A DNA stretch of 43,045 bases from a virus, in IMG/VR virus record IMGVR_UViG_3300049740_001301, positions 1 through 43,045 of that record; one strand, given 5' to 3'. The notes under the pieces are model-generated. The model was given only the letters and a program-made list of their open reading frames with translations, did no database searches and was not told where the DNA came from. Below, one piece after another: positions 4,157 to 34,852 of the stretch (the stretch's first letter is position 1; each line of letters begins with the position of its first letter). A program made the translations under genes and the position numbers.

Positions 4157-7100
4157 ATGAAAGACTTTAAAACACTTCTTAATGAAGTGCCTGCTAAAAA
4201 AATGGTCATAGGGTTTGGAAGATTTAATCCTCCAACCACTGGTCACGAATTACTTATCAATAAGGTGACCCAGTATGCTCGTTCAAAAGGCAGTCCCTCC
4301 AAAATATATGTCACAGCTACTGAAGACAAAAAGAAAAACCCACTAAAACAAGAACGCAAAATCTATTACATGAAAAGGATGTTCGGTGTGAACGCTCCTT
4401 TCGTGCCAACGAAGTCGCCTAATCAAAGAACAATTATAGAAGTAGCAAAGTATCTCAATACAAAAGAAAAGATTACTGAACTAACACTTATTGCTGGTAG
4501 TGATAGGATTGCTGAATACAAGAGATTACTCAACCAATATAATGGTAAAGATTACAACTTTGATAAGATAACTGTATTATCTTCTGGTCGTAGAGACCCT
4601 GACTCAGATATGGCTGAGGGAATGTCAGCTACTAAAATGAGAACTGCTGCCAGTTCTGGTAAATTTACTGACTTCAAACGAGGTATCCCTCGTAGAATGA
4701 CTATGGCTGATAGTAAAAGATTATTTAACGAAGTACGCAAAGGCATGGGTCTGCCACCAATTAGAGAAGAAGTAATTCTACCAACATCTCAACTAAGAGA
4801 AGATTATGTAGCGAAGAAGATATTTAATGTCGGAGCAGTAGTTGAAGACGCTGATGGTGTATATGAAGTTATGGATCGTGGGGCAAATTATATTAGTGTA
4901 TCTGACGAAGATGGCAATGTATCCAAAAAATGGCTACACGAAGTTCGTCAGATCGCCGAAACTAATACTGTAAATGACTATCATTATAATGATGAATTGG
5001 TATTTAAAGGGTTTACTACAGAACACTTCCATAATTACTACGAAATAAAAGATAAGTTTCTAGATTTATTTGAAAGTGATAAAGATCCTGTTGCTGTGCT
5101 TACATGCTTAAAACTTGTCGACCAGTCATTAAAGATATTAGAGGAAGCTAAGTCTAGAGGATACGCACTAATGGAAGAAGTTGGTGCTGATTCTATCATA
5201 AAAATGAAATTGTCAGACTCCCTAAATAATATAGGAGAGTTAGAAAGACATGACTACTTAGACCAAATAAATGCCGACTTGGCTGACTTACTCTCTAAGG
5301 AACCAAATATGAGAAAAGATTTAGAAGAACAAAAGAACTTAAAAATTGACCCACAGAATAAATTTAGATTTACTTCTGCTGATAGGATTAAGGTCGCTAG
5401 AATTATTGCTGGTTCAATGGGTGTTGATAACCCTGAGAAAATGTCAAACCCAACTCAACTTATAAACTTTGGTCTTAGAAAACTAAGAACAAAAAGAGTC
5501 ACTCCTGAGTTTGCTGAAATCGTAAAGAAAATGCTACAGACTGCTAAAACTGCAGGAATAGATTACGATCGTCAATATTTACCAGCTATTATGAGACAAG
5601 GGAAGTTCGCAGTAGAAAACAAATCATTTAAAGATTTTATGAGCGAAGTATCTGGCTCAGGTGTAGATCCTATCGTATTACAACTTAGAAAAAATATTAA
5701 TCTAAAAGGTAATTATACATTCGAATTTAATGATGGCTCAAAAGGTAAAATGTCTCCTGGAGCATCTGAAGGAATCTTAAACAAATACGATTCGCTAAGA
5801 AGACCTGCTCAAAAATTAAATGTGTCAAGAGGTATGGGTAAATCCATGAAATCTCTAAAAGATACATTATCAAACTGGGATTCTGTTGCTAATAAAGAAG
5901 ATCCTAAAGCTAAGAAGTCTGGTAGAGATGAACCACTTCGTGGTGTAAAGAATCCTATGGATGAAGCTGACCAATATTATAAAGGTGTATCTTCTAAAGA
6001 TAAAAAAGCAAGGAAGGCAGAGTTTGAAAAAGATTCTAAAAAAGATGATAGCGATCCTACCAAGTACGATCCTGCTGCTGGAGATCTAGATAAAAAAGGC
6101 GATTTTAAGAAAACAAAAAAATCTAAACATACACTTAAATACCATAAAAAGTATGGCGACCCAGAAGAACAAAACGAAGCATGGTTAAAAACTATTGAAG
6201 ATTTAACAGCTTTCTGGGATGAAGATGTAAAAGCCACAAAAGAAAGAATTAAAAAAGAAAAAGAAGCAGATAAAATGAAGCATGATAAAATGATGGATCG
6301 TGCTAGAACTCAAGATGCTCAGAAGAAAAACAGGGAAACAAAACCTGGAGTGAAGAAAGAAGAGTCTGAAGGCAAAGATGGTATCATGGGTGTAGGTAAA
6401 AATGTCACTCGTAAAGTTAGGCAAGGTCTAAGAGCAGAACTTATGATGCGTATGGCTATGACTAAAAAGAAAATGGCGAAAGCTGATAAAGGGTCAAAAG
6501 AGTTTGATGAACTTTATGCTGAATATAAAAAGTGTAAAGATAGAATGAAAAATCTTCCTGGAGTAGAGGGTGCTAATGAGCAGAAAATATGGGAAGTAAA
6601 ACGACCAAGTGTAGATGAAGTAGATCCTTCTAGTAATTTTAATATTGCTAAGTCTATTATGTCTTACCAAGATTACAAAAAGATGTTAAAACTAGCTGGT
6701 GGTATTGAAAAGAGAAAAGTAGATGGCACTATGGAAGTTGACAGTAAAGCTACTCGCGATGAAAAGATAATGAAACAAGTTATCGATGAAGATTGGTTAG
6801 AAGAAAACACAGCTGTAGCAAAGAAAGCTAAGAAGTCTGGTATTCCTAAAGGTATATTAATGCAGGTTTACAAAAGAGGAATGGCTGCATATGGTACAGG
6901 GCATCGTCCAGGAGCATCTCAACAACAATGGGCACTCGCTCGTGTAAATAGTTTCATTGGTAAAGGTAAAGGAACTTGGGGCAAAGCTGATAAAGATCTT
7001 GCAGATAAAGCGAGGTCAGCAATGAGTGATGAAGTAGAGCCAAATAAGAAAAAGAAAAAAGGCGATGTTGAATTAAAAGAACAAAAAAAGAACTGTGGGT

Positions 7101-8137
7101 GTGGCAAAGACCCATGTGAAACTTATGGCGATATACCAGAAGAAAAGGAAATGACTGATGCCCAAATGAAAAAACGAGAAGATATCGTTAAGGGCATGAA
7201 AGATAAAACTGCTGATTTTAAAAAGCGATATGGTAAAGATTATAAAGATGTAATGTATGCTACAGCTACTAAGATGGCTATGAAAGAAGAAGCTGATGGC
7301 GAACCGATGACTAAAATAGAAATCGATAAGCCAGTAGAAACTGAAGATAAACCAAAAGCTGATAAGATTAAAAAAAAATCAGGAACACCTAAGTCTGACG
7401 ACCCATATGATTTAGAAGTATTTGTAGCTGACCCAAAAGCTGACGCAATGCTTGACGATCTTAACGATGATGAAATCGAAAATGTGGTCAATATGTTTGA
7501 CCCTGAGCAAGATCCAATAAATGGTAAACTAGATATCTTTGACTTATATGATGATGAAGAACTAGCATTAGAAGTTGAAGATGAAGAAGGCGAAGTCACT
7601 CAAGAAAACTTTGAATATCTTGAGGGTGATTTAGAACAACAGCTGAACGAAGTACTAAGTAGAACTGAAAGAATTAAAAACCGAGTAAGAGTTAGAAGAA
7701 CTAAGGCAAGGAGAGCAAGAAGTTTACGAATCGCTCTTAGACGACACTCTTCTACACAGGTTATAAATAGTAGAGCAAGAAGATTAGCAGTAAAATTACT
7801 GAAAAGAAGATTCTTTAAAAAGGCACCTAATCAACTATCTGTAGGTGAAAGGGAAAGAGCCGAAGCAAGAATCGCTAAAATGCGTCATGTAGTAAAAAGG
7901 ATTGCCCTAAAACTAGCACCTCGTGTTAGGCAGATGGAAAAGAAAAGACTACATGGTAGAAAATCTGTAAAACCTGCTCAAAAATTTAAATCGGCACTGG
8001 CTGGTGGTAGAATTAGAACTGCCAAAAAACAAACAGGTCGTAAAACTGTAGGCAACTATGTTGGTCAAAGATCTAAAAGTAAAAAAGGTTATGGTGGGGC
8101 AACTGGTAAAGCATATGGTGGAGTTAGGAAAAAATAA
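4157..8137 (+). CDS. 1326-aa virion-type multidomain protein: NMNAT-like domain, DUF5824-like domain, basic tail
   Basis: Residues 15-190 form a nucleotidyltransferase domain of the HIGH family: GFGRFNPPTTGH (19-30) holds the TxGH site and SATKMR (157-162) the ISSTKIR-like motif, closest to NMN/nicotinate adenylyltransferases. The middle is lysine/glutamate-rich. Residues 890-955 (GIPKGILMQV, RGMAAYGTGHRPGASQQQWA) match the DUF5824-like domain of T4-like marine phages. Residues 1020-1045 hold FKKRYGKDYKDVMYATATK. An acidic stretch (1080-1160) is followed by an extremely basic tail (1167-1326) fit to bind DNA. The N-terminus MKDFKTLLNEV looks like a T4 capsid-targeting sequence with an LxE cleavage site. 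A second copy, SFKDFMSEV, lies at 490-498, and QLNEV (1162-1166) falls exactly before the basic tail. I infer prohead packaging and multiple gp21-type cleavages. The next gene overlaps by one base. Confidence 0.75.
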   Translation: MKDFKTLLNEVPAKKMVIGFGRFNPPTTGHELLINKVTQYARSKGSPSKIYVTATEDKKKNPLKQERKIYYMKRMFGVNAPFVPTKSPNQRTIIEVAKYLNTKEKITELTLIAGSDRIAEYKRLLNQYNGKDYNFDKITVLSSGRRDPDSDMAEGMSATKMRTAASSGKFTDFKRGIPRRMTMADSKRLFNEVRKGMGLPPIREEVILPTSQLREDYVAKKIFNVGAVVEDADGVYEVMDRGANYISVSDEDGNVSKKWLHEVRQIAETNTVNDYHYNDELVFKGFTTEHFHNYYEIKDKFLDLFESDKDPVAVLTCLKLVDQSLKILEEAKSRGYALMEEVGADSIIKMKLSDSLNNIGELERHDYLDQINADLADLLSKEPNMRKDLEEQKNLKIDPQNKFRFTSADRIKVARIIAGSMGVDNPEKMSNPTQLINFGLRKLRTKRVTPEFAEIVKKMLQTAKTAGIDYDRQYLPAIMRQGKFAVENKSFKDFMSEVSGSGVDPIVLQLRKNINLKGNYTFEFNDGSKGKMSPGASEGILNKYDSLRRPAQKLNVSRGMGKSMKSLKDTLSNWDSVANKEDPKAKKSGRDEPLRGVKNPMDEADQYYKGVSSKDKKARKAEFEKDSKKDDSDPTKYDPAAGDLDKKGDFKKTKKSKHTLKYHKKYGDPEEQNEAWLKTIEDLTAFWDEDVKATKERIKKEKEADKMKHDKMMDRARTQDAQKKNRETKPGVKKEESEGKDGIMGVGKNVTRKVRQGLRAELMMRMAMTKKKMAKADKGSKEFDELYAEYKKCKDRMKNLPGVEGANEQKIWEVKRPSVDEVDPSSNFNIAKSIMSYQDYKKMLKLAGGIEKRKVDGTMEVDSKATRDEKIMKQVIDEDWLEENTAVAKKAKKSGIPKGILMQVYKRGMAAYGTGHRPGASQQQWALARVNSFIGKGKGTWGKADKDLADKARSAMSDEVEPNKKKKKGDVELKEQKKNCGCGKDPCETYGDIPEEKEMTDAQMKKREDIVKGMKDKTADFKKRYGKDYKDVMYATATKMAMKEEADGEPMTKIEIDKPVETEDKPKADKIKKKSGTPKSDDPYDLEVFVADPKADAMLDDLNDDEIENVVNMFDPEQDPINGKLDIFDLYDDEELALEVEDEEGEVTQENFEYLEGDLEQQLNEVLSRTERIKNRVRVRRTKARRARSLRIALRRHSSTQVINSRARRLAVKLLKRRFFKKAPNQLSVGERERAEARIAKMRHVVKRIALKLAPRVRQMEKKRLHGRKSVKPAQKFKSALAGGRIRTAKKQTGRKTVGNYVGQRSKSKKGYGGATGKAYGGVRKK

Positions 8138-8484
8138 TGAAAACTTTTAAGGAACATAGAGAAGATAACATAGACGCAGTATGCGAAGCTATGGAACTTC
8201 CTACATTAGAAGAAGCTAAGTATCAAGGCAAAACTGTCACACTTAACGATCCTATTCGTACTTCTGAAAATCCTAACAAAAAATTTAAGGTATATGTAAA
8301 AGGTCCAAAAGGTAATGTCGTTGTTGTACGATTCGGAGATCCGAACCTAAGTATTAAAAGGGACGATCCTAAAAGGAGAAAAAGTTTCAGAGCAAGACAT
8401 GGGTGTGATAATCCAGGTCCAAAATGGAAAGCGAAATATTGGTCATGCTATCAGTGGAGAGCAGGTGCCAAAGTAAATAGTTAA
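8137..8484 (+). CDS. 115-aa head-associated-like phage protein
   Basis: 115 aa. The C-terminal half is very basic and ends in a pattern common in phage head clusters: RARHGCDNPGPKWKAKYW, then SCYQW. The conserved Cys, Pro and Trp residues suggest a small folded domain whose function is unknown to me. The N-terminus MKTFKEH resembles the T4 capsid-targeting peptide, and TLEEA (23-27) gives an LxE site for the prohead protease. The gene overlaps the 1326-aa gene by one base (TAATG) and precedes the ACP-domain gene, so it is probably a virion or prohead component. Confidence 0.7.
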   Translation: MKTFKEHREDNIDAVCEAMELPTLEEAKYQGKTVTLNDPIRTSENPNKKFKVYVKGPKGNVVVVRFGDPNLSIKRDDPKRRKSFRARHGCDNPGPKWKAKYWSCYQWRAGAKVNS

Positions 8485-8508
8485 TTACATTAACAAAGTG
8501 GAGATAAT

Positions 8509-9474
8509 ATGAGTAGTGAAAAGAATGGTCCAGTGGACATCCCAGAAACTGACGAACAATGGGATGAACTTATAAACGAAGCAGATGTAGAAGAACATCT
8601 GGCACAACAAAAACAACTAGAGGAAGAAATGAAAAGTGGGTTGACAAAACCTACAGAATCAAACCCTAGTGTAAATCCTTACAGTACAGATCCTAATGCA
8701 CCTCTTCCTGAGGGTGTGCTTAAAAGAGTTATGGGTATGGCTATTCCTACTAGAGAAAAACAACTAGAGGATTATGAGAAATATAAGGAAGCAACTGCTA
8801 AAACAACTGACAAATCCAAAGTAGATTGGGCGATTGAACAGATTGGCGATAATAATTTAGAAGGTGCTCAAGAATGGCTAAAAGAAAATAAACAAGAGAT
8901 TGATGAAAATAAAAGGTTGACAATTACCGAAGGACAAGCTGTTCAAGTACACTATGTTAAATTCTTATCAGAAGAAGAGTTTGAGAAAAAAATTATTGAA
9001 GGTTTGGCTGAGATTAAACAGCTAGAAGTATCTGAGATTATGGAAGCTGGTGGTATGGATGCTCACCTCGTAAGGGATTTAGATATTGATTCGCTTGATG
9101 CTATCGAACTAATTATGGATGCTGAGGATATGCTTGGTGCCCAAATCGAAAATACTGAGATTATGTGGGTCAAAACCCTTAGAGATATCTTTGAAGTTAT
9201 TAAGTATAAGATCGAAAATGATAATATGCCTTATCCTATACCTGAATTCGACGAAGAAGATATTATCTTTAGACCAACTACAGATACAGTAGATGGTAAA
9301 GAAGTACATTCAGGCAACTCTGCTTATAAACAATTCATGGCAGGGACTGATGAAAAGCATCGTATGGAAACTGATATAGACAAATATCTCGAAGAAGAAG
9401 AGGAAAGAGAGAAAAAATTGCGTGACCTTTTAGACGATGATGACGATGATTTATCAGTTGGACACAACAAATAA
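8509..9474 (+). CDS. Protein with an internal acyl carrier protein domain
   Basis: 321 aa. Residues about 155-236 form an ACP domain: a helix, then LVRDLDIDSLDAIELIMDAE (187-206), which aligns with the [20 protein letters not shown] region of bacterial ACP. Ser195 in DSL is the expected 4'-phosphopantetheine site. It is flanked by an acidic N-terminal region (1-150) and a C-terminal acidic tail of Glu/Asp runs (294-315). A holo-ACP synthase that could load it is encoded at 40067. FabI, a MaoC-fold dehydratase and a desaturase are also in the window. The location among head-type genes is odd for a metabolic carrier. It may be a virion protein carrying an acyl arm, or simply co-transcribed. GGAGATAAT supplies the ribosome site. 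Confidence 0.8.
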   Translation: MSSEKNGPVDIPETDEQWDELINEADVEEHLAQQKQLEEEMKSGLTKPTESNPSVNPYSTDPNAPLPEGVLKRVMGMAIPTREKQLEDYEKYKEATAKTTDKSKVDWAIEQIGDNNLEGAQEWLKENKQEIDENKRLTITEGQAVQVHYVKFLSEEEFEKKIIEGLAEIKQLEVSEIMEAGGMDAHLVRDLDIDSLDAIELIMDAEDMLGAQIENTEIMWVKTLRDIFEVIKYKIENDNMPYPIPEFDEEDIIFRPTTDTVDGKEVHSGNSAYKQFMAGTDEKHRMETDIDKYLEEEEEREKKLRDLLDDDDDDLSVGHNK

Positions 9475-26618: not shown

Positions 26619-27863
26619 ATGTTCATGAAGATATTAATGTTGGGGACTGCCCTAACTATATCTGCCATTGCTGCATATTACTCGATTATCGGATTAGCAA
26701 CTATTTTTGCTGCAGCAGTGATACCAGTTATAGTAATGGGATCCGCAATGGAAGTAGGAAAACTGGTCACAGTAGTTTATTTACATAGATACTGGGACGA
26801 ATGTAAAATACTACTCAAATCATATTTAATGTTCGCTGTGTTTTTCCTAATGTTTATTACCAGTATGGGAATATTTGGTTTTTTATCAAAGGCACATATC
26901 GAGCAAACTGCTCTATCAGATGAGCAGATAGCATTAGCCGAAAGTATTGATGATAAACTTGTTCGTTCACAAGTTAAAATCGACAGGTGGGATGCTGAAA
27001 TCGATAGACTATTACAACCAAATAATGAACGAGTTGATGTACAAATAGGAAACGAACAGGAAAGACTAGATGCATTATACGATAGGATTGCTGAAGAAAA
27101 GAAAGCAGCAAACGATGCGTATAATCAAAAACTAAAAACAATTAATGAAACTGTCACTGGGTTTGGCTCAGGTGCTGCCAAAAGAGAACAAGTAGATGCA
27201 GCAAATGCTGAACTTAAAAAAGAACTTACTGCTATCGACAGAAAATATAATACACAGATAGGAGAACTAGAAGAAGTAATAAAATCTTATCGTATTACTG
27301 CCGAATCTAAAACTGATGATATAGATGGTAAGGTGGCAACACTTGAATCTAATGTAGAAACTGAGCAAGTTATTGTTGATGCACTAATCGAAGAAAAAAT
27401 GGTTTATGAAAAAGAGTTTCGTAAACTTGAAGCTGAGGTTGGACCAGTCAAATATATTGCTGAGTTAGTATATGGGGAAGCCAATAAATCAGTACTCGAG
27501 GATGCTGTAAGATGGGTAATTATTATTCTATGTATTGTATTTGACCCACTTGCTGTGGCTTTACTTATTGCTTGGAATGGTATGATTGCCCAACCAAGAC
27601 GAAAAATTCCTGAAATTCCTGAGAGTATAATGAATGTCAGTGATGATGCAAGATATTACTGGCAAAAAATACAAGAAGATCGTAAGGTAAAGGCACATGT
27701 TGACAATCTACCAGAGAAAAGGGAAGATCGTCCTGGACCAAGTATAGCTGAAAAGCCAAAAGAAGTGGATCCAGACAATGAACCATACAATCCTGAAAGT
27801 TATGAATTAAGATCTGATATTAAGGAAATTATCAAAAAGAAAGATACTGAGAACCCTAAATAG
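26619..27863 (+). CDS. Membrane protein with long periplasmic or cytosolic coiled coil
   Basis: 414 aa. Membrane helices at about 5-25, 28-50 and 70-92, then a long charged coiled coil (100-275) with a short break, a fourth membrane helix at about 300-325 (WVIIILCIVFDPLAVALLIAW), and a Pro-rich hydrophilic tail (335-414). The architecture (membrane pair, coiled coil, membrane helix) resembles DUF4407-type proteins and an uncharacterised family of T4-like marine phages. It could act in infection-induced membrane remodelling, but nothing proves this. GGAGG at 26608 sets the start. Confidence 0.7.
   Translation: MFMKILMLGTALTISAIAAYYSIIGLATIFAAAVIPVIVMGSAMEVGKLVTVVYLHRYWDECKILLKSYLMFAVFFLMFITSMGIFGFLSKAHIEQTALSDEQIALAESIDDKLVRSQVKIDRWDAEIDRLLQPNNERVDVQIGNEQERLDALYDRIAEEKKAANDAYNQKLKTINETVTGFGSGAAKREQVDAANAELKKELTAIDRKYNTQIGELEEVIKSYRITAESKTDDIDGKVATLESNVETEQVIVDALIEEKMVYEKEFRKLEAEVGPVKYIAELVYGEANKSVLEDAVRWVIIILCIVFDPLAVALLIAWNGMIAQPRRKIPEIPESIMNVSDDARYYWQKIQEDRKVKAHVDNLPEKREDRPGPSIAEKPKEVDPDNEPYNPESYELRSDIKEIIKKKDTENPK
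27856..27862 (+). promoter_or_regulatory. Possible late promoter, CTAAATA
   Basis: CTAAATA overlaps the stop codon of the 414-aa gene. Predicted +1 about 27868 leaves a 52-base leader before ATG 27921. That leader holds a small hairpin, TAATGAT (27885-27891) with ATCATTA (27899-27905). Confidence 0.4.
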
Positions 27864-27920: not shown

Positions 27921-28214
27921 ATGGCAAAAAAAGATTTTGATTTAGATGGCGATGGAATCACTTCGAAAGAAGAGATCGAAGCAGCCAAATTACTCAAAGA
28001 AGCAGAAGCAGCAGAAGAAAAAGCTGACACGCAGAAAGCTATGGCATGGGTCGCTATGATATCCATGCTTGGCTTTACTCTATTTTTATTCCTACCTTTT
28101 ATGTCCAATGAACGAGTCTCAGCACTCGGAGATCTGCTTGGTCTATTTTATATAGCACAAGCTGGAGTCGTTGGAGCATATATGGGTATGTCTGCTTACA
28201 TGAGTAGAAAATAA
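27921..28214 (+). CDS. EF-hand-like, two-helix membrane protein
   Basis: 97 aa. The N-terminus FDLDGDGITSKEEIE (5-19) fits the canonical EF-hand calcium loop DxDxDGxIxxxE. A helical linker and two membrane segments follow, about 40-58 (MAWVAMISMLGFTLFLFL) and 70-92. The small size with two membrane helices is holin-like. A calcium-gated membrane protein is a conceivable reading, but only the loop is seen. It lies just upstream of two more membrane/coiled-coil genes and the curli cassette. Confidence 0.65.
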   Translation: MAKKDFDLDGDGITSKEEIEAAKLLKEAEAAEEKADTQKAMAWVAMISMLGFTLFLFLPFMSNERVSALGDLLGLFYIAQAGVVGAYMGMSAYMSRK

Positions 28215-28227
28215 CAGACTCGGTTTT

Positions 28228-28509
28228 ATGGATGAGATATTTTTACTAATAGGAGAACTAGGACTGCCCATAGCAGGATGTATTGCTGGTGGGGCATTCA
28301 TATACATTATCCTAAAATACATCCTATCAGGTGTCACTGACCAAGTGAAGACCATGCATGGGATTATATCCATGCTCGACAATCGTATCAAAAATATGAA
28401 TAATGATATGATAAAGCTCGACATACTTATTTCACATTCACTTAATTTAAAACCTGACGAGGAAAGAATTGCTCGTGCCGATGGGAAAGAAGATGCTCGG
28501 CGTGATTGA
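28228..28509 (+). CDS. Single-pass membrane protein with coiled coil (paralogue A)
   Basis: 93 aa. One membrane helix near residues 8-35 (IGELGLPIAGCIAGGAFIYI) and then a coiled coil (40-75: MLDNRIKNMNNDMIKLDI). The order of parts and the DNRI/DRIR..L.ND.I.L pattern match the protein encoded just downstream, so the two are paralogues. They may form a hetero-oligomer. Holin/antiholin pairs or secretion accessory proteins are possible; neither is shown. Confidence 0.65.
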   Translation: MDEIFLLIGELGLPIAGCIAGGAFIYIILKYILSGVTDQVKTMHGIISMLDNRIKNMNNDMIKLDILISHSLNLKPDEERIARADGKEDARRD

Positions 28510-28765
28510 AATAATAAATGAATATGGCTTCCCGATAGTGGCTGTGGTTGGTATGGGCTGGTTTATCTGGTTCATATATAACTACATTACCAACTTAATA
28601 GCTGAAAAGCTAGACCAAGCCAATGTAGTTTTAATAGCATTGATAGATAGGATTCGTATGTTAGATAATGATATTATAAGACTGAAGTCAAAGATTAATA
28701 CAGTAATAGAATTACAAGAATTACAGAAGAAACAGGATGAAAAAAAGGATGAAAAAACTAAATAA
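28469..28765 (+). CDS. Single-pass membrane protein with coiled coil (paralogue B)
   Basis: 98 aa from TTG 28469, which has GAGGAAAGAA at normal spacing; ATG 28481 or 28493 are alternatives. It overlaps paralogue A by 41 bases. One membrane helix (GFPIVAVVGMGWFIWFIYNY) is followed by a coiled coil (VLIALIDRIRMLDNDIIRLK) and a Lys/Glu tail. It is the last gene before csgF; csgF starts four bases after its stop, and a late promoter lies in its final codons. Confidence 0.65.
   Translation: MLVPMGKKMLGVIEIINEYGFPIVAVVGMGWFIWFIYNYITNLIAEKLDQANVVLIALIDRIRMLDNDIIRLKSKINTVIELQELQKKQDEKKDEKTK
28758..28764 (+). promoter_or_regulatory. Late promoter of the curli cassette, CTAAATA
   Basis: CTAAATA within the last codons of the upstream gene. 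Six bases after its last A is 28770, the A of the csgF ATG. No Shine-Dalgarno sequence precedes this ATG. This predicts a leaderless csgF message and late expression of the curli genes. Confidence 0.6.
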
Positions 28766-28769
28766 TAGT

Positions 28770-29231
28770 ATGAAGATTCTAGCATTTTTGCTACTATTAC
28801 CGAGCATAGCATTAGCTGATGCTCTGGTTTTCGAGTTTGGGAACCCAGCTTTTTCTGGTTCAGGATACAGTTCCCATGTATTGAGTGTTGAGCAACTGCA
28901 ATATTCAAGAGGACAAGATGTAAAAGATGCAGCAAAAAGCGATGCTGCTAGATTAACAAGGGAACAAGAGAATACTACAGTTGCTAAGTTTATTAAAAAT
29001 GTTGAATCCAGAATTTATGCTAACTTGTCGAAGCAGTTAGTGGATAATATGTTCGGTACAAGTTGTGACAGTACAACTACGAACTGTCCGACAAGTGGTA
29101 CTTCAGAGGTCGAGGGTGCTACTATCTATTGGGTAAAGGATACTACAACAGAAATTATAACTCTTACCATCACAGATGAAAATGGATCTGTGACAAGCAT
29201 GAGCGTACCTATCGGCGATTTTGTTTTTTAA
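28770..29231 (+). CDS. csgF: Curli assembly factor CsgF
   Basis: 153 aa from ATG 28770; longer in-frame starts at 28737 would bury the signal peptide. Signal peptide MKILAFLLLLPSIALA. The mature N-terminus DALVFEFGNPAFSGSGY matches bacterial CsgF (TMTFQFRNPNFGG), the segment that plugs into the CsgG pore and forms its second constriction. The rest follows the CsgF layout: a helical middle (FIKNVESRIYANLSKQLVDN) and a beta C-terminus (IITLTITDENGSVTSMSVPI). It has an extra disulfide-like pair (SCDSTTTNCPT). CsgF sits at the outer surface and couples CsgG secretion to fibre nucleation. The downstream genes are csgG and two curlin-like proteins, which supports the assignment strongly. Confidence 0.88.
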   Translation: MKILAFLLLLPSIALADALVFEFGNPAFSGSGYSSHVLSVEQLQYSRGQDVKDAAKSDAARLTREQENTTVAKFIKNVESRIYANLSKQLVDNMFGTSCDSTTTNCPTSGTSEVEGATIYWVKDTTTEIITLTITDENGSVTSMSVPIGDFVF

Positions 29232-29244
29232 AGGGAGTTGCTCA

Positions 29245-30078
29245 GTGCACAATTTATATAAAGGCATAGTATTGTTGGGTCTGTTCTTTTTAGCAGGTTG
29301 TGCTACCACACCTGAGAAAATAAATGACTACAAGGAGATGGGTGCTTTCCATCATGCTACTCCTACAAATAAATTACTGATTGATTTACCAGAACTAGAC
29401 CAAGAAATTATGACGATTGCTGTTTATAATTTTAGTGATAAAACTGGACAACGAAAACCAAGTCAAAAGTTTTCACAATTATCAACTGCTGTGACTCAAG
29501 GTCCAGAAGTTTGGGTGATACAAGCACTAAAAGAAGCTGGTAATGGTACATGGTTTAAAGTTGTTGAACGAGGTGGCTTAGATAACCTCGTAAAAGAAAG
29601 ACAATTAATACGATCCACTAGAGAATCGTATGAAGGAAACGAAGCAAATAAAAATAGTTTAAAGCCACTATTATTTGCTGGATTAATATTAGAAGGAGGA
29701 GTTGTTTCCTATGACACTAATATTGATACAGGTGGCTTCGGTGTAAGATATTTTGGTATCGGTGCTCATGAAGAGTATCGAGTTGACCAAGTGACTGTCT
29801 CGATGAGAGTTGTAGCAGTACAAACAGGAGAAGTAATCCTAGCTGTAAATGGTACAAAAACTATCGCATCTCACAAGACAGGAGTTGATGCCTTTAGATT
29901 TATAGATATGGGCACAAGAGCGATAGAGGTTGAGAGTGGGGTAAGTGCAAACGAACCTGTAAATTATGCTATAAGATCTGCAGTAGAATACTGTATTATC
30001 GAAATAATAAAACAGGGCGAGCAAAAGTCACTCTGGAAATTTAAACAGGAGAAAAAAGAAGATGAGGGAATACATTAA
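29245..30078 (+). CDS. csgG: Curli secretion channel CsgG
   Basis: 277 aa from GTG 29245 (AGGGAG seven bases upstream), the same length as Escherichia CsgG. Signal peptide with lipobox LAGC, then motifs aligned with CsgG throughout: IAVYNFSDKTGQRKP, VVERGGLDNLVKERQLIR, GGFGVRYFGIGAHEEYRVDQ, VSMRVVAVQTGEVILAVNGT, FRFID, and SNEPVNYAIRSAVE. CsgG assembles as a nonameric outer-membrane lipoprotein pore for curli subunits (type VIII secretion). All regions needed for the barrel and the periplasmic ring appear present. It is embedded in a gene run with csgF before it and curlin-like genes after it (17-base overlap). CsgE, CsgC and a CsgD regulator are not seen. Confidence 0.95.
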   Translation: MHNLYKGIVLLGLFFLAGCATTPEKINDYKEMGAFHHATPTNKLLIDLPELDQEIMTIAVYNFSDKTGQRKPSQKFSQLSTAVTQGPEVWVIQALKEAGNGTWFKVVERGGLDNLVKERQLIRSTRESYEGNEANKNSLKPLLFAGLILEGGVVSYDTNIDTGGFGVRYFGIGAHEEYRVDQVTVSMRVVAVQTGEVILAVNGTKTIASHKTGVDAFRFIDMGTRAIEVESGVSANEPVNYAIRSAVEYCIIEIIKQGEQKSLWKFKQEKKEDEGIH

Positions 30079-30757
30079 AACAGCTATATTATTTGTCCCT
30101 TTGTTATTTGCTGGTAGTTTTTTGATGGCGAATGATGTCTATGTCACGCAAAGTGGTGATACACTTGACTTAGATATTACTCAAGATGGTCAAAATAACA
30201 CTATTGGTAATTCTACGACTGCTTCCAGTTCGACAGGTGCCACCACTACATTAAACATTGACCAAATAGGAAACTCGAATGTTATTACTTACCAGATTAA
30301 TGGTGCTACTTATAGTGGTGTTATTAATTTAGTTGGTAATTCAAACAATGTTGATTTAAACTGTGATAGCCAAGGAAACAATAGTTCTTGTGGTACTGCT
30401 AATGCAGTAATTAATTTTACAGGTAATTCAAACGACATCGATTTAGATATTGGTCAAACTGCAGCAGCAGGTAATGCTGATGTAGATATAGTTGGTCAGT
30501 CTGGTTCCGACAGTAATGTCGTTGCAGCAACAGTAGATGGTACAAGTGCCATCCTGACAATAACTGTGAATGGTGACACTAACAACTGGTTGATAGACAT
30601 GGATGGCAATGGTGATGTTAATGGACATACTCTGATACATACTCATACTGGCGGAATCGCTGATGTGGATATAGTACAAAGTGGTATTAATGACCAAATG
30701 ATTACACTAACGACTAGTGGTGATAATCATGACATCGATATTAGCCAAACTGATTAA
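30062..30757 (+). CDS. Curlin-repeat secreted protein 1
   Basis: 231 aa. Signal peptide ending near FAGSFLMAND. The mature protein is built of strand-turn-strand repeats rich in Asn, Gln, Gly, Ser and Asp, with the curlin spacing of Gln-x-Gly..Asn (VTQSGDTLDLDITQDGQNN; IDQIGNSNVITYQ; DIVQSGINDQMITL). At least six irregular repeats can be made out. Repeats at both ends end in Q/N pairs that would stack in a cross-beta amyloid. One Cys pair (LNCDSQGNNSSCG) sits in the middle and may form a loop disulfide. It is the likely CsgG substrate, in the CsgA/CsgB role. The start overlaps csgG by 17 bases, with AGGAG 11 bases upstream. Confidence 0.8.
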   Translation: MREYIKTAILFVPLLFAGSFLMANDVYVTQSGDTLDLDITQDGQNNTIGNSTTASSSTGATTTLNIDQIGNSNVITYQINGATYSGVINLVGNSNNVDLNCDSQGNNSSCGTANAVINFTGNSNDIDLDIGQTAAAGNADVDIVGQSGSDSNVVAATVDGTSAILTITVNGDTNNWLIDMDGNGDVNGHTLIHTHTGGIADVDIVQSGINDQMITLTTSGDNHDIDISQTD

Positions 30758-30773
30758 TTCGTAAAGGTTTGTT

Positions 30774-31895
30774 ATGAGTTTGAAACTCGCTATACCAATG
30801 ACGATATTTGGCATGCTTCTACTATGCTCACAAGAAGCTAAAGCCGATATTGGTAAAGTCACTATCCATCAAGGAAGTGGGTTTATTGAAAGAAAAGCTG
30901 ATGGCGAGTCAGTAAACACTACAGAAGATTTAGATGTTTTCAGCTATGACACTGTAAAGACTGGTGATGGTAAAACTTCTATAGACTTCGTAGATGATAC
31001 AAGGGTAGATGTCACAGAACATTCTAAACTAATCATTGATGAATTCGTTTACGATCCTAAAGCTAAGACAGGAAAACTGTCATTGAAAGCAAGTTTAGGA
31101 ACAATCAGATATGCTTCAGGTCAGATAGCAAAGAACTCAAGGCAAGATGTTAATATCACTACACCTACAGCAACTATCGCTGTAAGGGGAACTGACTTTA
31201 GCATGACTGTTGATGAGATTGGTGGTTCTACAATTATATTACTACCAAGTTGCGACTCTACTGGTGCTTGCTTTGTAGGTGAGATATCAGTAGAATCAGA
31301 TATAGGTCAAGTAATACTTAACCAAGCATTTCAAGCAACAGTAGTTAGTACTGTATCATCACAGCCGATGAAACCAGTATTACTAAATTTAGATGAGGAT
31401 ATGATAGGCAATTTACTTATCGTGTCAAAGCCGAAAGAAATAGAAGAAGGTGAAGCGAGAGAAGCAGCATATAATAAAGTAGCATCGGCATTAGATATTG
31501 ACTTCCTACAGTTTGACGATTTAGAGGTAGATTATTTAGAGGAAGAAGAAGACCAGTGGGCAACTGGATTAGATATAGATTTTTTAGAGCAAAACTTTTT
31601 GGTAGATATTTTGGCTCAAATTAATAAAGAACTTGCTAAAGCTATGCGAAGTGAGTTTGATAAACAAAAATCTACAGGCGATATAAGATTAGGTAAAGAT
31701 CCTGAAACTGGCATTATAATTCTAGATGAAGATCCACATTGGGTTTATTCTAGAGAGGGAGCAGGAAACTTTTTTGAACTTAGATTAGATAAAGAATATG
31801 GTTATGTAATTTCATTTACACAAAATGACTTTGCCATATTTGATTACGAACTAGGAGGAAATGACAATGTCATCAATATTTTACAAAATCAGTAG
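30774..31895 (+). CDS. Secreted FecR-domain protein with curlin-like C-terminal end
   Basis: 373 aa. Signal peptide (residues 1-24, ending SQEAKA). A FecR domain spans about 27-170: FIERKADGESV, DTVKTGDGKTSIDFVDDTRV, KASLGTIRYASG, and ITTPTATIAVRGTDFSM. There is a Cys pair at about 160-166. The middle (220-330) is acidic. The last 13 residues (GGNDNVINILQNQ) look like a curlin repeat edge. FecR domains are beta-helical and usually periplasmic. Next to CHASE2 cyclases they are common in bacteria, and here a CHASE2 cyclase follows three genes later. It may bridge the curlin fibre to the cell or sense it. Its end overlaps the second curlin gene. Confidence 0.8.
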   Translation: MSLKLAIPMTIFGMLLLCSQEAKADIGKVTIHQGSGFIERKADGESVNTTEDLDVFSYDTVKTGDGKTSIDFVDDTRVDVTEHSKLIIDEFVYDPKAKTGKLSLKASLGTIRYASGQIAKNSRQDVNITTPTATIAVRGTDFSMTVDEIGGSTIILLPSCDSTGACFVGEISVESDIGQVILNQAFQATVVSTVSSQPMKPVLLNLDEDMIGNLLIVSKPKEIEEGEAREAAYNKVASALDIDFLQFDDLEVDYLEEEEDQWATGLDIDFLEQNFLVDILAQINKELAKAMRSEFDKQKSTGDIRLGKDPETGIIILDEDPHWVYSREGAGNFFELRLDKEYGYVISFTQNDFAIFDYELGGNDNVINILQNQ

Positions 31896-32586
31896 TATTA
31901 TATTTTTTGTTTTATTTGCGACCGAAGCATTCGGTAGCGAACTTTATATAAACCAATCAGGAAATAATTTTAATCTAGAAGTAATTCAAGATGGTACTGG
32001 TAATAATTTAATTAGAGGATATCATAATCAAACTGCTAGTATCGTTGGTAATAATAACTCCCTAAAGATTACACAAAAACAAACTGTTTCAACTTCTACC
32101 TTCTCAACAGCACATGTTGATATTAATGGTCATAGTAATGATATATTCATGGGTATGGGTGTAGGCACTACAAACTTTACAAACTTTACACAAACAGATA
32201 ATCAAGAAGCTGGCAATCACAATCAAAAGTTATATCTACAAGGAGATAATAACGATGTCTATATGGCTCAAAGAAATGGTTCACCAAGTCAAATATATAG
32301 TGCGCATTCAATAGATTTAAAAATATACAGTGATGGTAATAATGTTGGAATAATGCAAGGTCACGATGGGTCAAAAACATTTAACCTAACTATAAATAAT
32401 GATAATAATAATGTAGTTGCTTATCAGATGGGTTATAACTCTGCTCATACTGCTACCATAACTCTAGATGGCAACTATCCGACTAACTTAGATCTCAACC
32501 AGAATAATGGATATAGCAACAGTTCGTACTCGCTTAATCAGTTTTGTAATTCTAGTAATGGGTGTAATGTCACAGTGGCAGATTAA
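31867..32586 (+). CDS. Curlin-repeat secreted protein 2
   Basis: 239 aa from ATG 31867; GGAGG at 31855 is seven bases before it, while ATG 31861 is too close. Signal peptide ends near TEAFGS. The mature start ELYINQSGNNFNLEVIQDG is parallel to that of curlin 1 (DVYVTQSGDTLDLDITQDG), so the two are paralogues. About seven repeats follow with QxG/GNNN(S/D) turns (SIVGNNNSLKITQKQ; VDINGHSNDIFMG; LYLQGDNNDVYMAQRNG). The C-terminus has a Cys pair (QFCNSSNGCNVTVAD). It is Asn-rich and predicted to form a CsgA-type solenoid. As curlin 1 and 2 differ in charge and Cys placement, one may nucleate the other, as CsgB does CsgA. That is inference. Confidence 0.8.
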   Translation: MSSIFYKISSIIFFVLFATEAFGSELYINQSGNNFNLEVIQDGTGNNLIRGYHNQTASIVGNNNSLKITQKQTVSTSTFSTAHVDINGHSNDIFMGMGVGTTNFTNFTQTDNQEAGNHNQKLYLQGDNNDVYMAQRNGSPSQIYSAHSIDLKIYSDGNNVGIMQGHDGSKTFNLTINNDNNNVVAYQMGYNSAHTATITLDGNYPTNLDLNQNNGYSNSSYSLNQFCNSSNGCNVTVAD

Positions 32587-32601
32587 AGAAAAAATAAATA
32601 A

Positions 32602-32608
32602 CTAAATA
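32602..32608 (+). promoter_or_regulatory. Late promoter of iscU, CTAAATA
   Basis: CTAAATA in the 27-base gap after curlin 2. Six bases after its last A is 32614, the first base of the GTG start of iscU. No Shine-Dalgarno sequence is present, so a leaderless transcript is predicted. Confidence 0.6.
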
Positions 32609-32613
32609 ATATT

Positions 32614-33042
32614 GTGGCTTATTCTAAAGAAGTCGTAGAAAGATTTGAAAGTGTTCTACGCAATCCTGAAAAGCATGCGGTTGGTAAATTCAATCCGCAG
32701 GATTCAGATATAGCCACTGGTATGGTTGGTGCCCCATCATGTGGGGATGTCATGAAACTTCAACTAAAACTTGACCAAGCTAACGATCCTGATAAAGCCA
32801 AGATATTAGATGTCAAGTTTAAAACATATGGGTGTGGTTCTGCTATTGCATCCTCTACAATGTTCGTAGATATGTTAAAAGGTAAAACTATTGAACAAGC
32901 TATGGCGATTACAAACGATGAGATAGCTGAAGCATTAGATTTACCACCAATTAAAATTCACTGTTCAGTATTAGCAGAAGAAGGAATAAAGAAAGCGATA
33001 TCAAATTGGTATGATAAAAAAGATTCTAACACACTGGACTAG
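32614..33042 (+). CDS. iscU: Iron-sulfur cluster scaffold IscU
   Basis: 142 aa from GTG 32614. It follows cellular IscU closely: TGMVGAPSCGDVMKLQLKL, FKTYGCGSAIASSTMFVD and LPPIKIHCSVLAEEGIKKAI. The three cluster cysteines are C43, C74 and C117, with the essential Asp in CGD (D45). LPPIK (110-114) is the HscA chaperone recognition motif (LPPVK in Escherichia). It receives sulfur from host IscS and iron, and delivers clusters to apoproteins. No IscS or HscA is seen here, so host partners are needed. Possible clients include phage iron-sulfur proteins. The last 32 bases overlap the cyclase gene. Confidence 0.95.
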   Translation: MAYSKEVVERFESVLRNPEKHAVGKFNPQDSDIATGMVGAPSCGDVMKLQLKLDQANDPDKAKILDVKFKTYGCGSAIASSTMFVDMLKGKTIEQAMAITNDEIAEALDLPPIKIHCSVLAEEGIKKAISNWYDKKDSNTLD

Positions 33043-34852
33043 TGCGTTCATAACACTTGCCATTCTGGCAGGTATCGGATTATACAATCCTGACTTCAAA
33101 GAAATAATTAAATTAAAATCTTTTGATTTTCTATTAGCATCAGAAGAAAAAACTTTTTCTGAAGATATAGTTATAGTCGAAATAGACGAAGCTACATTAG
33201 ATGTCAAAGGTCAATACCCATTCTCTAGAGTACACTACAGTTTCCTCATAGAAAAATTAAGAGAAGCTGGAGCAGGTGTAATAGTATTCCCAATATTATT
33301 CTCAGAAAAAGATAGAGAGGATGGCGACTGGGTGTTTGAATCTACACTAAAAGCAGGAACTGTTATCGCTCAATTAGGAACTAATGATATTAATAAGAAT
33401 GGTGTGCCTAGAGGTGTGGCTAAAATAGGTGACCCATTACCATACTTATTTGAGTGGGGTGGTATGCTTGGTCCAATACCACAACTTGGTCAGGCAGCAA
33501 ATGGTGTAGGTGTTGTAAATACTGCACCTGAAATAGATGGTGTTGTTCGTAGAGTTCCTCTACTTATGAAAATAGATAATGACATATATCCTAGTATAGC
33601 CATAGAAGTTATTAGAGTCGCAGTGGGCGACCCATCCTATCAAGTAAAAGCAGGTGATGGTGGCATACAAGCTATGAGAGTTCCAGGATTCGCTACTATT
33701 GAAACTGATGCGAATGCTAGAATATGGTTAAGGCACGATAAAGAATATCATACTATGTCAATGATGGATGTAGAAAATGGGATAAATGATTTATTATTAT
33801 TTGGTAAAACTATAATCGTATCTCCAACTGCTGCTGGTATATCTAATATAATTGCTACACCAAGAGGTGAACAGTATTCACATTATATAACTGCTTCTAC
33901 ATTACAAACTGTTTTATCAGGCGAACAAATAACTAGAGTAGATTGGTTGCCATTAGCAGAAATAATGCTAATGATGTTTTGGTGTATTATTACTATCTTT
34001 GCTTGTAGGTTTTTACCTTATGCTTGGTTGGCAATTTATCTAGGTGTGGTTGTATCTGCTGCCATCGCGAAAGCATACTTCGCATTTACTTATTATGGTT
34101 GGCTAGTAGATGTATCTTGGTTTGTAATAGCTACATTCCTTGTAGGTTTTCATGCTACCTTTACTAGATTTATCCTAGAGTTTAATTTAAAACAACAAAT
34201 AAGAAAACAGTTTGAAAGATATCTAGATCCAAGACAAGTTGCTATATTACAAAAAGATCCAAGTAAATTAAAACTGGGTGGTGAGAAAAGAGAGATGAGT
34301 TTCTTATTTATGGATATAGTTGGCTTTACTCCTATATCTGAGTATTTTAAAAATAAAGATGACCCAGAAGGATTAGTTGAACTCATTAATGATTACTTAA
34401 ATCGTATGACTAAAATTGTATTGGCTAATGGTGGGTGTGTCGATAAATATATGGGCGACTGTATTATGGCATTCTGGAATGCTCCACTTGATTGTGATAA
34501 TCACGCAGAGTTGGCAGTCAAAACTTCTATAGAGTGTGCTGAAGAAACACAAAAATTAAAGAAAGAATATAAAGAAGCAGGATTACCTGAGATTAATATT
34601 GGCTCAGGTGTAAATACTGGTACATGTATTGTAGGAAATATGGGTAGTGAAATGAGATTTGATTACTCAGTAATCGGTGACGCAGTAAACCTTGCTGCCA
34701 GATTAGAAGCTCAAACTAGAAACTATAAAAACTGTCATACTCTATATTCTCAGTACACCAAAGATGCCCTAAATAGTATTGAATCCAAAGAACTTGATAA
34801 AATCAAGGTGAAGGGAAAAGAAGAACTTATAACAATATACGAACCAAAATGA
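33011..34852 (+). CDS. CHASE2-sensor membrane adenylate cyclase
   Basis: 613 aa. A signal/anchor helix lies at about 8-25. The CHASE2 sensor domain covers about 30-300 (DIVIVEIDEATLDVKGQYPF; IVNTAP-type segment VGVVNTAPEIDGVVRRVP). Three membrane helices follow at about 314-333, 338-355 and 368-385. A class III nucleotide cyclase domain covers about 425-600: FLFMDIVGFT with metal Asp D435, VDKYMGDCIMAFWN with K479 and the second metal Asp D483, and DYSVIGDAVNLAARLEA with S553, N560 and R564. The Lys plus Ser/Thr pair fits an adenylate rather than guanylate cyclase. All catalytic residues are present. The sensor faces the periplasm, like CsgG, CsgF and FecR, which suggests envelope-to-cAMP signalling. 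It overlaps iscU by 32 bases. Confidence 0.9.
   Translation: MIKKILTHWTSAFITLAILAGIGLYNPDFKEIIKLKSFDFLLASEEKTFSEDIVIVEIDEATLDVKGQYPFSRVHYSFLIEKLREAGAGVIVFPILFSEKDREDGDWVFESTLKAGTVIAQLGTNDINKNGVPRGVAKIGDPLPYLFEWGGMLGPIPQLGQAANGVGVVNTAPEIDGVVRRVPLLMKIDNDIYPSIAIEVIRVAVGDPSYQVKAGDGGIQAMRVPGFATIETDANARIWLRHDKEYHTMSMMDVENGINDLLLFGKTIIVSPTAAGISNIIATPRGEQYSHYITASTLQTVLSGEQITRVDWLPLAEIMLMMFWCIITIFACRFLPYAWLAIYLGVVVSAAIAKAYFAFTYYGWLVDVSWFVIATFLVGFHATFTRFILEFNLKQQIRKQFERYLDPRQVAILQKDPSKLKLGGEKREMSFLFMDIVGFTPISEYFKNKDDPEGLVELINDYLNRMTKIVLANGGCVDKYMGDCIMAFWNAPLDCDNHAELAVKTSIECAEETQKLKKEYKEAGLPEINIGSGVNTGTCIVGNMGSEMRFDYSVIGDAVNLAARLEAQTRNYKNCHTLYSQYTKDALNSIESKELDKIKVKGKEELITIYEPK

Follow-up and report, generated by a model that had tools for sequence, protein, structure and literature searches.

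We analyzed a stretch of viral DNA of 43,045 bases (the window), which is the entire virus record IMGVR_UViG_3300049740_001301 and comes from a T4-like relative of Pelagibacter phage HTVC008M, and found that it carries a type VIII secretion (curli) module at positions 28,228-34,852, with all genes on the plus strand and tightly packed or overlapping (Table 1). The gene order is TMc-A and TMc-B (two small proteins with a transmembrane (TM) segment and a coil), csgF, csgG, curlin 1, a FecR-domain gene, curlin 2, a NifU-like gene and a CHASE2-cyclase gene. We favor, with modest confidence, the reading that this is a phage-encoded curli module with a built-in sensing pair: a late surface amyloid or adhesin whose export would be sensed via the FecR protein and the CHASE2 cyclase. 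That phages carry a curli module is already known (PMC7029224, PMC9599517 and PMC9004378), as the initial annotation had surmised for SAR11 myophages. What is added here is the FecR-curlin/CHASE2 reading, a TMc pair that does not look like a kinase, bacterial counterparts of the module and the heads on second curlins. Phages that infect very abundant ocean bacteria carry such modules, and the FecR protein and cyclase, earlier described as an iron regulator and a cyclase, are reread as a possible sensor of amyloid export.

Table 1. Features of the curli module in the window (aa, amino acids; ORF, open reading frame; values after family names are E-values)
Feature	Position	Strand	Evidence
TMc-A, 93 aa, one TM segment then coil	28228-28509	+	phrog_18771, 3.2e-31
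TMc-B, TM and coil paralogue of TMc-A	28481-28765	+	ATG at 28481 (ORF open from TTG 28469); phrog_18771, 8.3e-31; paralogue alignment
csgF; signal-like N-terminus, then CsgG-binding peptide FEFGNPAF	28770-29231	+	ORF open from 28737; PF10614, 6.7e-14
csgG, outer-membrane lipoprotein secretion pore	29245-30078	+	GTG start; lipobox LAGC; PF03783, 3.4e-56
Curlin 1 (CsgA/B-like)	30062-30757	+	N-terminal hydrophobic segment; N+Q 17%; predicted beta-solenoid
FecR-curlin protein, 373 aa: N-terminal hydrophobic segment 1-19, FecR domain 59-153, acidic linker, C-terminal curlin-like repeat	30774-31895	+	PF04773, 2.8e-9
Curlin-like tail of the FecR protein, last 32 residues, YGYVISFTQNDFAIFDYELGGNDNVINILQNQ	31797-31892	+	Translation
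Curlin 2, form without N-terminal head	31861-32586	+	N+Q 22%; Curlin_rpt in family
NifU/IscU-like Fe-S scaffold gene, present as an insertion within the module of this subclade	32614-33042	+	phrog_8429, 2.5e-25
CHASE2 sensor with class III nucleotide cyclase (predicted adenylate cyclase)	33011-34852	+	PF05226, 2e-38; PF00211, 1.1e-19

The initial annotation had proposed a phage-borne curli cassette, and this is the right identification: the CsgF, CsgG and curlin families are all matched by Pfam, and the gene identity of the cassette is strongly supported. CsgG, correctly predicted with its lipobox, aligns over residues 9-270 with the chains of the E. coli CsgG structure (E 1.7e-49). The plug peptide claimed for CsgF was recovered as well: the N-terminal stretch FEFGNPAF fits the pattern F-x-F-x-N-P-x-F of the E. 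coli peptide quoted in PMC6957492, and F23, P26 and F28 are invariant in an alignment of 21 sequences. The T4-like flanks that had been described on both sides are a DNA primase and the ribonucleotide reductase subunits NrdA and NrdB upstream and a phage exonuclease downstream, and the tight packing is real, curlin 1 overlapping csgG by 17 nt and curlin 2 overlapping the FecR gene by 35 nt. The claim of two curlin-type proteins directly after csgG stood in part: both families match Curlin_rpt, but the two genes are not consecutive, the FecR-domain gene lying between them. The module is also larger than had been annotated, the TMc pair, the FecR-curlin protein and the CHASE2 cyclase having been overlooked. 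In the curlin 1 family Curlin_rpt was found in 18 of 22 members at E up to 1 (best 3.3e-9; the window protein itself gave a sub-threshold match only, 0.013), and in the curlin 2 family in 9 of 14 members at E up to 0.1 and 38 of 79 at E up to 0.01, with no match for the window curlin 2 in the Pfam scan. The AlphaFold2 model of curlin 1 is a confident beta-solenoid (mean predicted local distance difference test score, pLDDT, 86.2). A Foldseek search with this model gave no match at E 0.001, the top one being the FapC amyloid (0.067), and VIA-align returned beta-helices including tailspikes and SufB/D (Z 17.2), with no curli among the 50 matches listed. The solenoid fold therefore does not separate curli from phage fibres or other beta-helices.

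By its sequence, the FecR-domain protein ends in a curlin-like repeat. The end repeats the curlin pattern G-x-x-N-x-h-x-h-x-Q, and Q350 and Q371 are invariant in 22 phage sequences. A strict form of this tail motif was observed in 54 of the 62 phage FecR proteins longer than 340 aa, compared to none of 1095 other mechanically called ORFs of at least 80 aa from the phage loci and about 1.1% of shuffled tails; as a positive control, it was found in 70 of 104 curlins longer than 180 aa. Within a wider set of 133 distinct phage FecR copies the strict motif is present in 115 and a relaxed form in 122; among the 11 misses there is one truncated copy, and most of the rest have a comparable end with altered spacing. 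Even a divergent copy of 785 aa, with a much longer acidic linker, still ends in GGTITIIQID. For bacterial loci without the curli set, none of 82 FecR ORFs carries the relaxed motif; this control compares ORF ends that are less than like for like, since 25 of the 82 frames end just after the FecR domain (after VRGT), and one locus (L183) has a weak CsgG-family match. A frameshift in these short bacterial genes was considered; our reading is instead a short FecR gene with a distinct second gene behind it. Among the bacterial FecR proteins that are linked to curli genes, the motif occurs in those of L110 and L111, two loci described below. As the FecR sequences are related, these counts show constraint on the tail and not many independent events. 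In a profile comparison (hhalign) the tail matched the last curlin 1 repeat with E 0.013, the best of four, compared to 0.18-0.58 for three controls. The idea that curlin-tailed FecR proteins are widespread in Alphaproteobacteria was dropped: in 385 genomes of the class (E up to 1e-20) the sole full-length match to A1 came from the centre genome, G001.

FecI-type anti-sigma FecR proteins are defined by an anti-sigma N-terminus in the cytoplasm and, after it, a central TM segment. In our alignment the FecR domain PF04773 is present in all 23 members, and Pfam found an anti-sigma domain of the DUF4880 type in none of the 23. The segment 1-19 is the sole hydrophobic one of the window protein. A crude hydropathy scan of the 133 phage copies gave an N-terminal hydrophobic segment in 110 and no TM segment after residue 45 in 125, so that the protein appears to be exported, and probably is. 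No FecI gene was seen among the ten module proteins scanned. These observations bear on the proposal that the pore is an uptake channel, importing large nutrients such as iron or cofactors, with FecR as the iron regulator (PMC9599517; uptake also in PMC7029224). The FecR model speaks for this proposal through a match of residues 56-212 to the PupR signalling domain (Z 15.1, 134 aligned residues, 2.5 A), but the absence of the anti-sigma domain, of the later TM segment in nearly all copies and of a FecI gene, together with the curlin tail, makes it very improbable. In the reading that we favor, the FecR protein is not an iron/FecI anti-sigma regulator.

The partner that we propose for the FecR protein is the cyclase at the end of the module. 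Residues D435, K479, D483, D557 and R564 are kept in all 125 distinct phage copies, and N560 and D551 in 100 of the 125. We take D435 and D483 to be the metal-binding Asp pair and R564 to be the catalytic Arg. In one cyclase group (among them those of L002, L074, L093 and L106) the stretch GDAVN reads GDSVS, GDAVS or GDMVS, with Ser at the N560 position. In another cyclase (L404, 8004-9659) the CHASE2 half has strongly diverged and the catalytic half is near that of the window, suggesting a domain exchange.

FecR proteins and CHASE2 enzymes are also neighbors outside curli loci. Among bacterial loci with FecR and without the curli set, an ORF matching the CHASE2 or cyclase profile lies within 3 kb in 27 of 74, and 11 of 17 ORFs beside FecR in non-curli loci carry OmpA. 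A FecR-LysM protein is found beside a CHASE2 kinase in the BiofilmReg operon of Burkholderia (PMC5192318, a paper of 2016 that terms the environmental signals of CHASE2 unknown). A protein signal acts on CHASE2 cyclases of S. meliloti via the outer-membrane barrel NsrA (PMC13001267), and a FecR-domain protein is among the Clr targets (PMC5498481). The Burkholderia system and the bacterial loci among L120-L186 thus resemble the phage module in placing a FecR-domain protein beside a CHASE2 sensor enzyme, and differ in having OmpA or LysM, in place of a curlin repeat, as the attached or partner part and in lacking a csgF-csgG-curlin set. From this pairing and the S. meliloti precedent we infer that the curlin tail may be a docking end and the FecR-CHASE2 pair a sensor of curli: the tail, together with the adjoining predicted cyclic AMP (cAMP)-making enzyme, suggests that the phage also senses fibre export. 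A simpler view, that the FecR protein is a periplasmic anchor or nucleator only, whose folded domain cannot pass CsgG while its curlin tail joins the fibre, would fit the tail motif and the match of model residues 23-119 to a 'cell surface anchoring domain' (5ix9; Z 7.5 over 75 residues, 25% identity). A Z of 7.5 may reflect a mere common arrangement, and the anchor view leaves unexplained both the FecR-CHASE2 pairing outside curli and the presence of FecR in all 33 cyclase-found loci of at least 12 kb; we consider it unlikely. More tentative than the sensing pair, and doubtful as it stands, is a generalization: FecR proteins paired with CHASE2 enzymes could be sensors of envelope structures with exchangeable docking ends (OmpA or LysM, i.e. 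peptidoglycan, in many bacteria and a curlin repeat here), the pair reporting curli export to cAMP in phages and a few bacterial genomes, and the module may have been spread by, or refined in, viruses. The reading of the phage pair as a sensor of amyloid export, if right, would suggest a docking rule for CHASE2 and show how a phage monitors a surface structure that it builds on its host. A literature search did not find FecR, CHASE2 and curli together, nor 'FecR domain', curli and Alphaproteobacteria, most subscription papers lying outside the search. As a side observation, a set of a short FecR gene ending in VRGTxxxVxxE, a lipoprotein-like or OmpA gene starting with VLLPDxDGxVGxVxV and a CHASE2-type enzyme recurs in bacteria (L120, L123, L124, L126, L140, L149, L158, L176, L186 and others); in the phage protein the VLLPDxDGxVGxVxV stretch is contiguous with FecR.

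The gene families, their order and conservation, the tail motif, the cyclase residues and the heads on the second curlins of relatives can be read directly from sequence. The course of events that we propose for the sensing module is as follows. Late in infection, the infected cell would make CsgG pores with CsgF in its outer membrane. Curlin 1 would be exported as the bulk amyloid and curlin 2 probably as an adhesive subunit, with a PA14-like or other head in many relatives, and the surface amyloid may stick cells to one another or to surfaces. The FecR tail would dock on curlin or the CsgG/F channel, with the folded FecR domain remaining in the periplasm, where its state could be read by the periplasmic CHASE2 domain of the neighboring cyclase; the enzyme would thereby convert curli export or assembly into an intracellular cAMP signal.

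Adhesion is a likely role of the module, and the evidence for it comes from the second curlins. We scanned 79 of the 85 second curlins that were left after thinning at 90% identity, omitting five contig-end fragments of 50-82 aa and that of L340 (146 aa). Their length ranges from about 80 to 503 aa, and the 21 that exceed 400 aa have an N-terminal stretch nearly devoid of curlin motifs (0.75 versus 24.4 per 1000 aa). These heads fall into two groups of 12 and 9 on a shared curlin body. A head query from the group of 12, which includes the second curlin of HTVC008M, recovers the same 12. Pfam found PA14 in 10 of the 79, F5/8 type C in one, GLEYA in one and ThuA in one, counts that are totals and not assigned to individual proteins; we name the group of 12 PA14-like and the group of 9 ThuA-like as presumed classes. 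The heads favor adhesion or aggregation over a bare pore, and adhesion is what the PA14-like heads, present on many second curlins, suggest in particular; this is relevant to the 'sibling capture' idea put forward together with csgF and csgG of pelagimyophages (PMC7029224). In the literature search, again mostly outside subscription papers, the PA14 domain and curlin were co-mentioned solely in PMC8398270, a paper on yeast-type adhesins; the main text of PMC9599517 has no PA14, lectin, adhesin or CHASE2.

The same parts could serve superinfection exclusion, suggested in PMC9599517, with an amyloid coat masking receptors or catching rival phages on the infected cell's surface. Exclusion requires nothing beyond what adhesion requires, and nothing separates the two; late expression would come late for exclusion, and we give this purpose a rather small chance. 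As to timing, the T4 late motif TATAAATA is found about 15 nt before csgF in many relatives: among 136 distinct upstream regions there are 45 occurrences that begin 11-20 nt ahead of the earliest possible csgF start, compared to about 0.25 predicted by the rate of the motif in the loci (517 in 2,874 kb). Late expression is likely for this kind of module, and may hold for this contig. The late motif in the relatives would also fit a lysis timer, in which CsgG/F is a gated outer-membrane pore that helps to depolarise the envelope and the TMc proteins are holin-like partners. A role of the pore in lysis was proposed in PMC9004378, and the TMc proteins are small TM and coil proteins, one of them with weak holin and spanin matches (0.029 and 0.0081). 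A pore, however, needs neither two conserved curlins nor heads on the second curlin nor a FecR tail, and the csgF-csgG-curlin-FecR-cyclase set also occurs in bacterial contigs with ordinary chromosomal neighbors. Furthermore, PMC9004378 says that the Methylophilales phage Melnitz lacks csgA and csgB, but its GenBank entry lists two curlin-repeat genes. Taken together, we regard the lysis timer as improbable.

Several observations weigh against a sensed surface amyloid. According to PMC9004378, no clumping was seen in Melnitz-infected cultures although Melnitz carries the module. The window curlin 2 has no head. The late promoter that the initial annotation had placed before the cassette did not hold up: TATAAATA occurs four times in the window, compared to a chance mean of 6.75, once inside curlin 2 (32391) and never upstream of the cassette; the 54 sigma-70-like sites found versus 44.4 expected are uninformative. 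The FecR tail matches the curlin profile weakly (E 0.013, probability 3.2%), its pLDDT in the model is below 50, Pfam did not report Curlin_rpt on the FecR tails, and the bacterial FecR protein of L112 lacks the tail motif. Only 110 of the 133 FecR copies show the N-terminal hydrophobic segment in the crude scan, and 8 have a later TM segment. N560 of the cyclase is replaced by Ser in 25 of the 125 copies. CsgE, the absence of which had been pointed out in the initial annotation, was matched neither in the window's own record (0/1) nor in related records (0/7). It was also missing from all 20 ordinary alphaproteobacterial genomes with csgF, so CsgE is not defining for curli in this class. A role of FecR as a substitute for the CsgE cap is unsupported, as ordinary alphaproteobacterial curli genomes lack CsgE (0/20) and have no FecR beside csgF.

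We then asked how far the genes travel together. Loci were gathered by CsgG (38), FecR (best 80 of 298), TMc (best 80 of at least 587) and cyclase (best 80 of at least 600), with overlaps, and co-occurrence was counted in newly fetched loci of at least 12 kb, which represent best-scoring relatives and were not thinned by contig. Of the 26 TMc-found loci, CsgF was present in 23, CsgG in 23, curlin in 25, FecR in 24 and cyclase in 26; the 33 cyclase-found loci had TMc in 31, CsgF in 31, CsgG in 32, and curlin and FecR in all 33. In the exceptions (L305, L320, L321, L355 and L400) the stretch ends near the missing genes or was not followed. The order csgF-csgG-curlin-FecR is kept in 97 of 97 loci with a distinct CsgG and the full set. 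The module also occurs in contigs of jumbo-phage size, 317-344 kb (L097, 337 kb; L306, 317 kb; L307, 344 kb). CsgG was found in both of the whole records searched of these three, and L097 and L307 share the neighbor family phrog_25854.

The pelagiphage type VIII secretion system module of PMC9599517, described as HK-CsgF-CsgG-CsgA/B-FecR-CsgA/B-AC (HK, histidine kinase; AC, adenylate cyclase), and the module of HTVC008M (KC465899) have genes and an order identical to those of the window, and the HTVC008M proteins are 62-69% identical to the window CsgG, cyclase and FecR. The window differs in the NifU-like gene between curlin 2 and cyclase, in its short headless curlin 2 and in having no TATAAATA before csgF; its module lies between nrdB and the exonuclease gene, whereas that of HTVC008M lies between ssb/2OG-type genes and a tail gene. 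Melnitz (MZ577097, PMC9004378) shares the TMc pair, csgF, csgG, curlin, FecR, curlin and cyclase at 47-55% identity to the window (FecR, cyclase, CsgG), and differs by the Ser at the N560 position of its cyclase. Both phages belong to the Kyanoviridae. The GenBank entry of Melnitz lists its two 'curlin associated repeat protein' genes at 6265-6984 and 8043-9059, contrary to the statement in PMC9004378.

A scan of bacteria with the FecR alignment, one genome per species, covered the best 80 of 212 relatives and yielded six near relatives. Of these, L107-L109 are 7-12 kb contigs that carry TMc genes and appear to be phage contigs that ended up in metagenome-assembled genomes (MAGs) during binning. 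L110 and L111 (Caulobacteraceae MAGs) and L112 (Hyphomonas sp. TMED17) contain csgF-csgG-curlin-FecR-CHASE2 cyclase in the phage order, and the scanned flanks of L111 and L112 hold ordinary bacterial genes (TonB receptors, FAA hydrolase, amidohydrolase). They differ from the phage module in that no TMc pair was found and no curlin follows FecR; in L110 and L111 two curlins precede it. A further 32 alphaproteobacterial genomes have csgF above the cut-off, of which 20 were fetched as stretches of 17-18 kb (L221-L240). Like the window these have CsgF, CsgG and curlins and no CsgE, but FecR and the CHASE2 cyclase are present in 0 of 20 and their CsgG proteins group in a clade of their own (100/99). 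Bacterial curli operons have been stated in the literature to lack FecR and AC; this is true of the 20 ordinary loci, with L110-L112 as exceptions.

For the CsgG tree we used 81 rows (58 phage, 3 bacterial FecR-type and 20 ordinary alphaproteobacterial; thinned at 75% identity, at least 230 aa), and for the cyclase tree 42 rows (thinned at 62% identity, at least 590 aa), with strong full-size matches only as outgroups. The phages and the three bacterial FecR-type loci form one clade in both (CsgG 100/99, cyclase 100/100). In the CsgG tree the three bacterial rows fall inside the phage rows (98/88 and 99/91), and a tree constrained to keep the phage CsgG sequences together is worse by 17.4 log units (p-AU 0.035, a test made once the tree was known); in the cyclase tree they stand between two phage clades with weak support (80/70). 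The position of the three bacterial operons inside the phage diversity of CsgG is the reason why the module may have been spread by or refined in viruses. A clean transfer from a bacterial donor to phages is not supported as such.

The gene or genes before csgF are labelled 'histidine kinase' in PMC9599517, and equating them with the TMc pair rests on position. Among the Pfam matches of 22 TMc family members at E up to 1 there is no kinase domain (HisKA/HATPase_c). The window proteins have 93 and 94-98 aa and their relatives mostly 84-115 aa. The pair accompanies the module in relatives, sometimes on the opposite strand, and so follows the module without being fixed in it. The NifU-like profile was matched by 16 ORFs in the first 107 sequences, and in L375, L377 and L391 the NifU-like gene precedes the TMc pair. 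A search of the phage collection with the window gave no near DNA match, and scans of the window with Rfam (gathering threshold) and for tRNAs returned nothing. Two further genes precede the module, one for a 414-aa protein with several TM segments, a coiled coil and a weak match to DUF4407 (26619-27863; 3.9e-5) and one for a 97-aa TM protein (27921-28214; phrog_27150); the two are found paired in the close relatives of the window (L004-L014).

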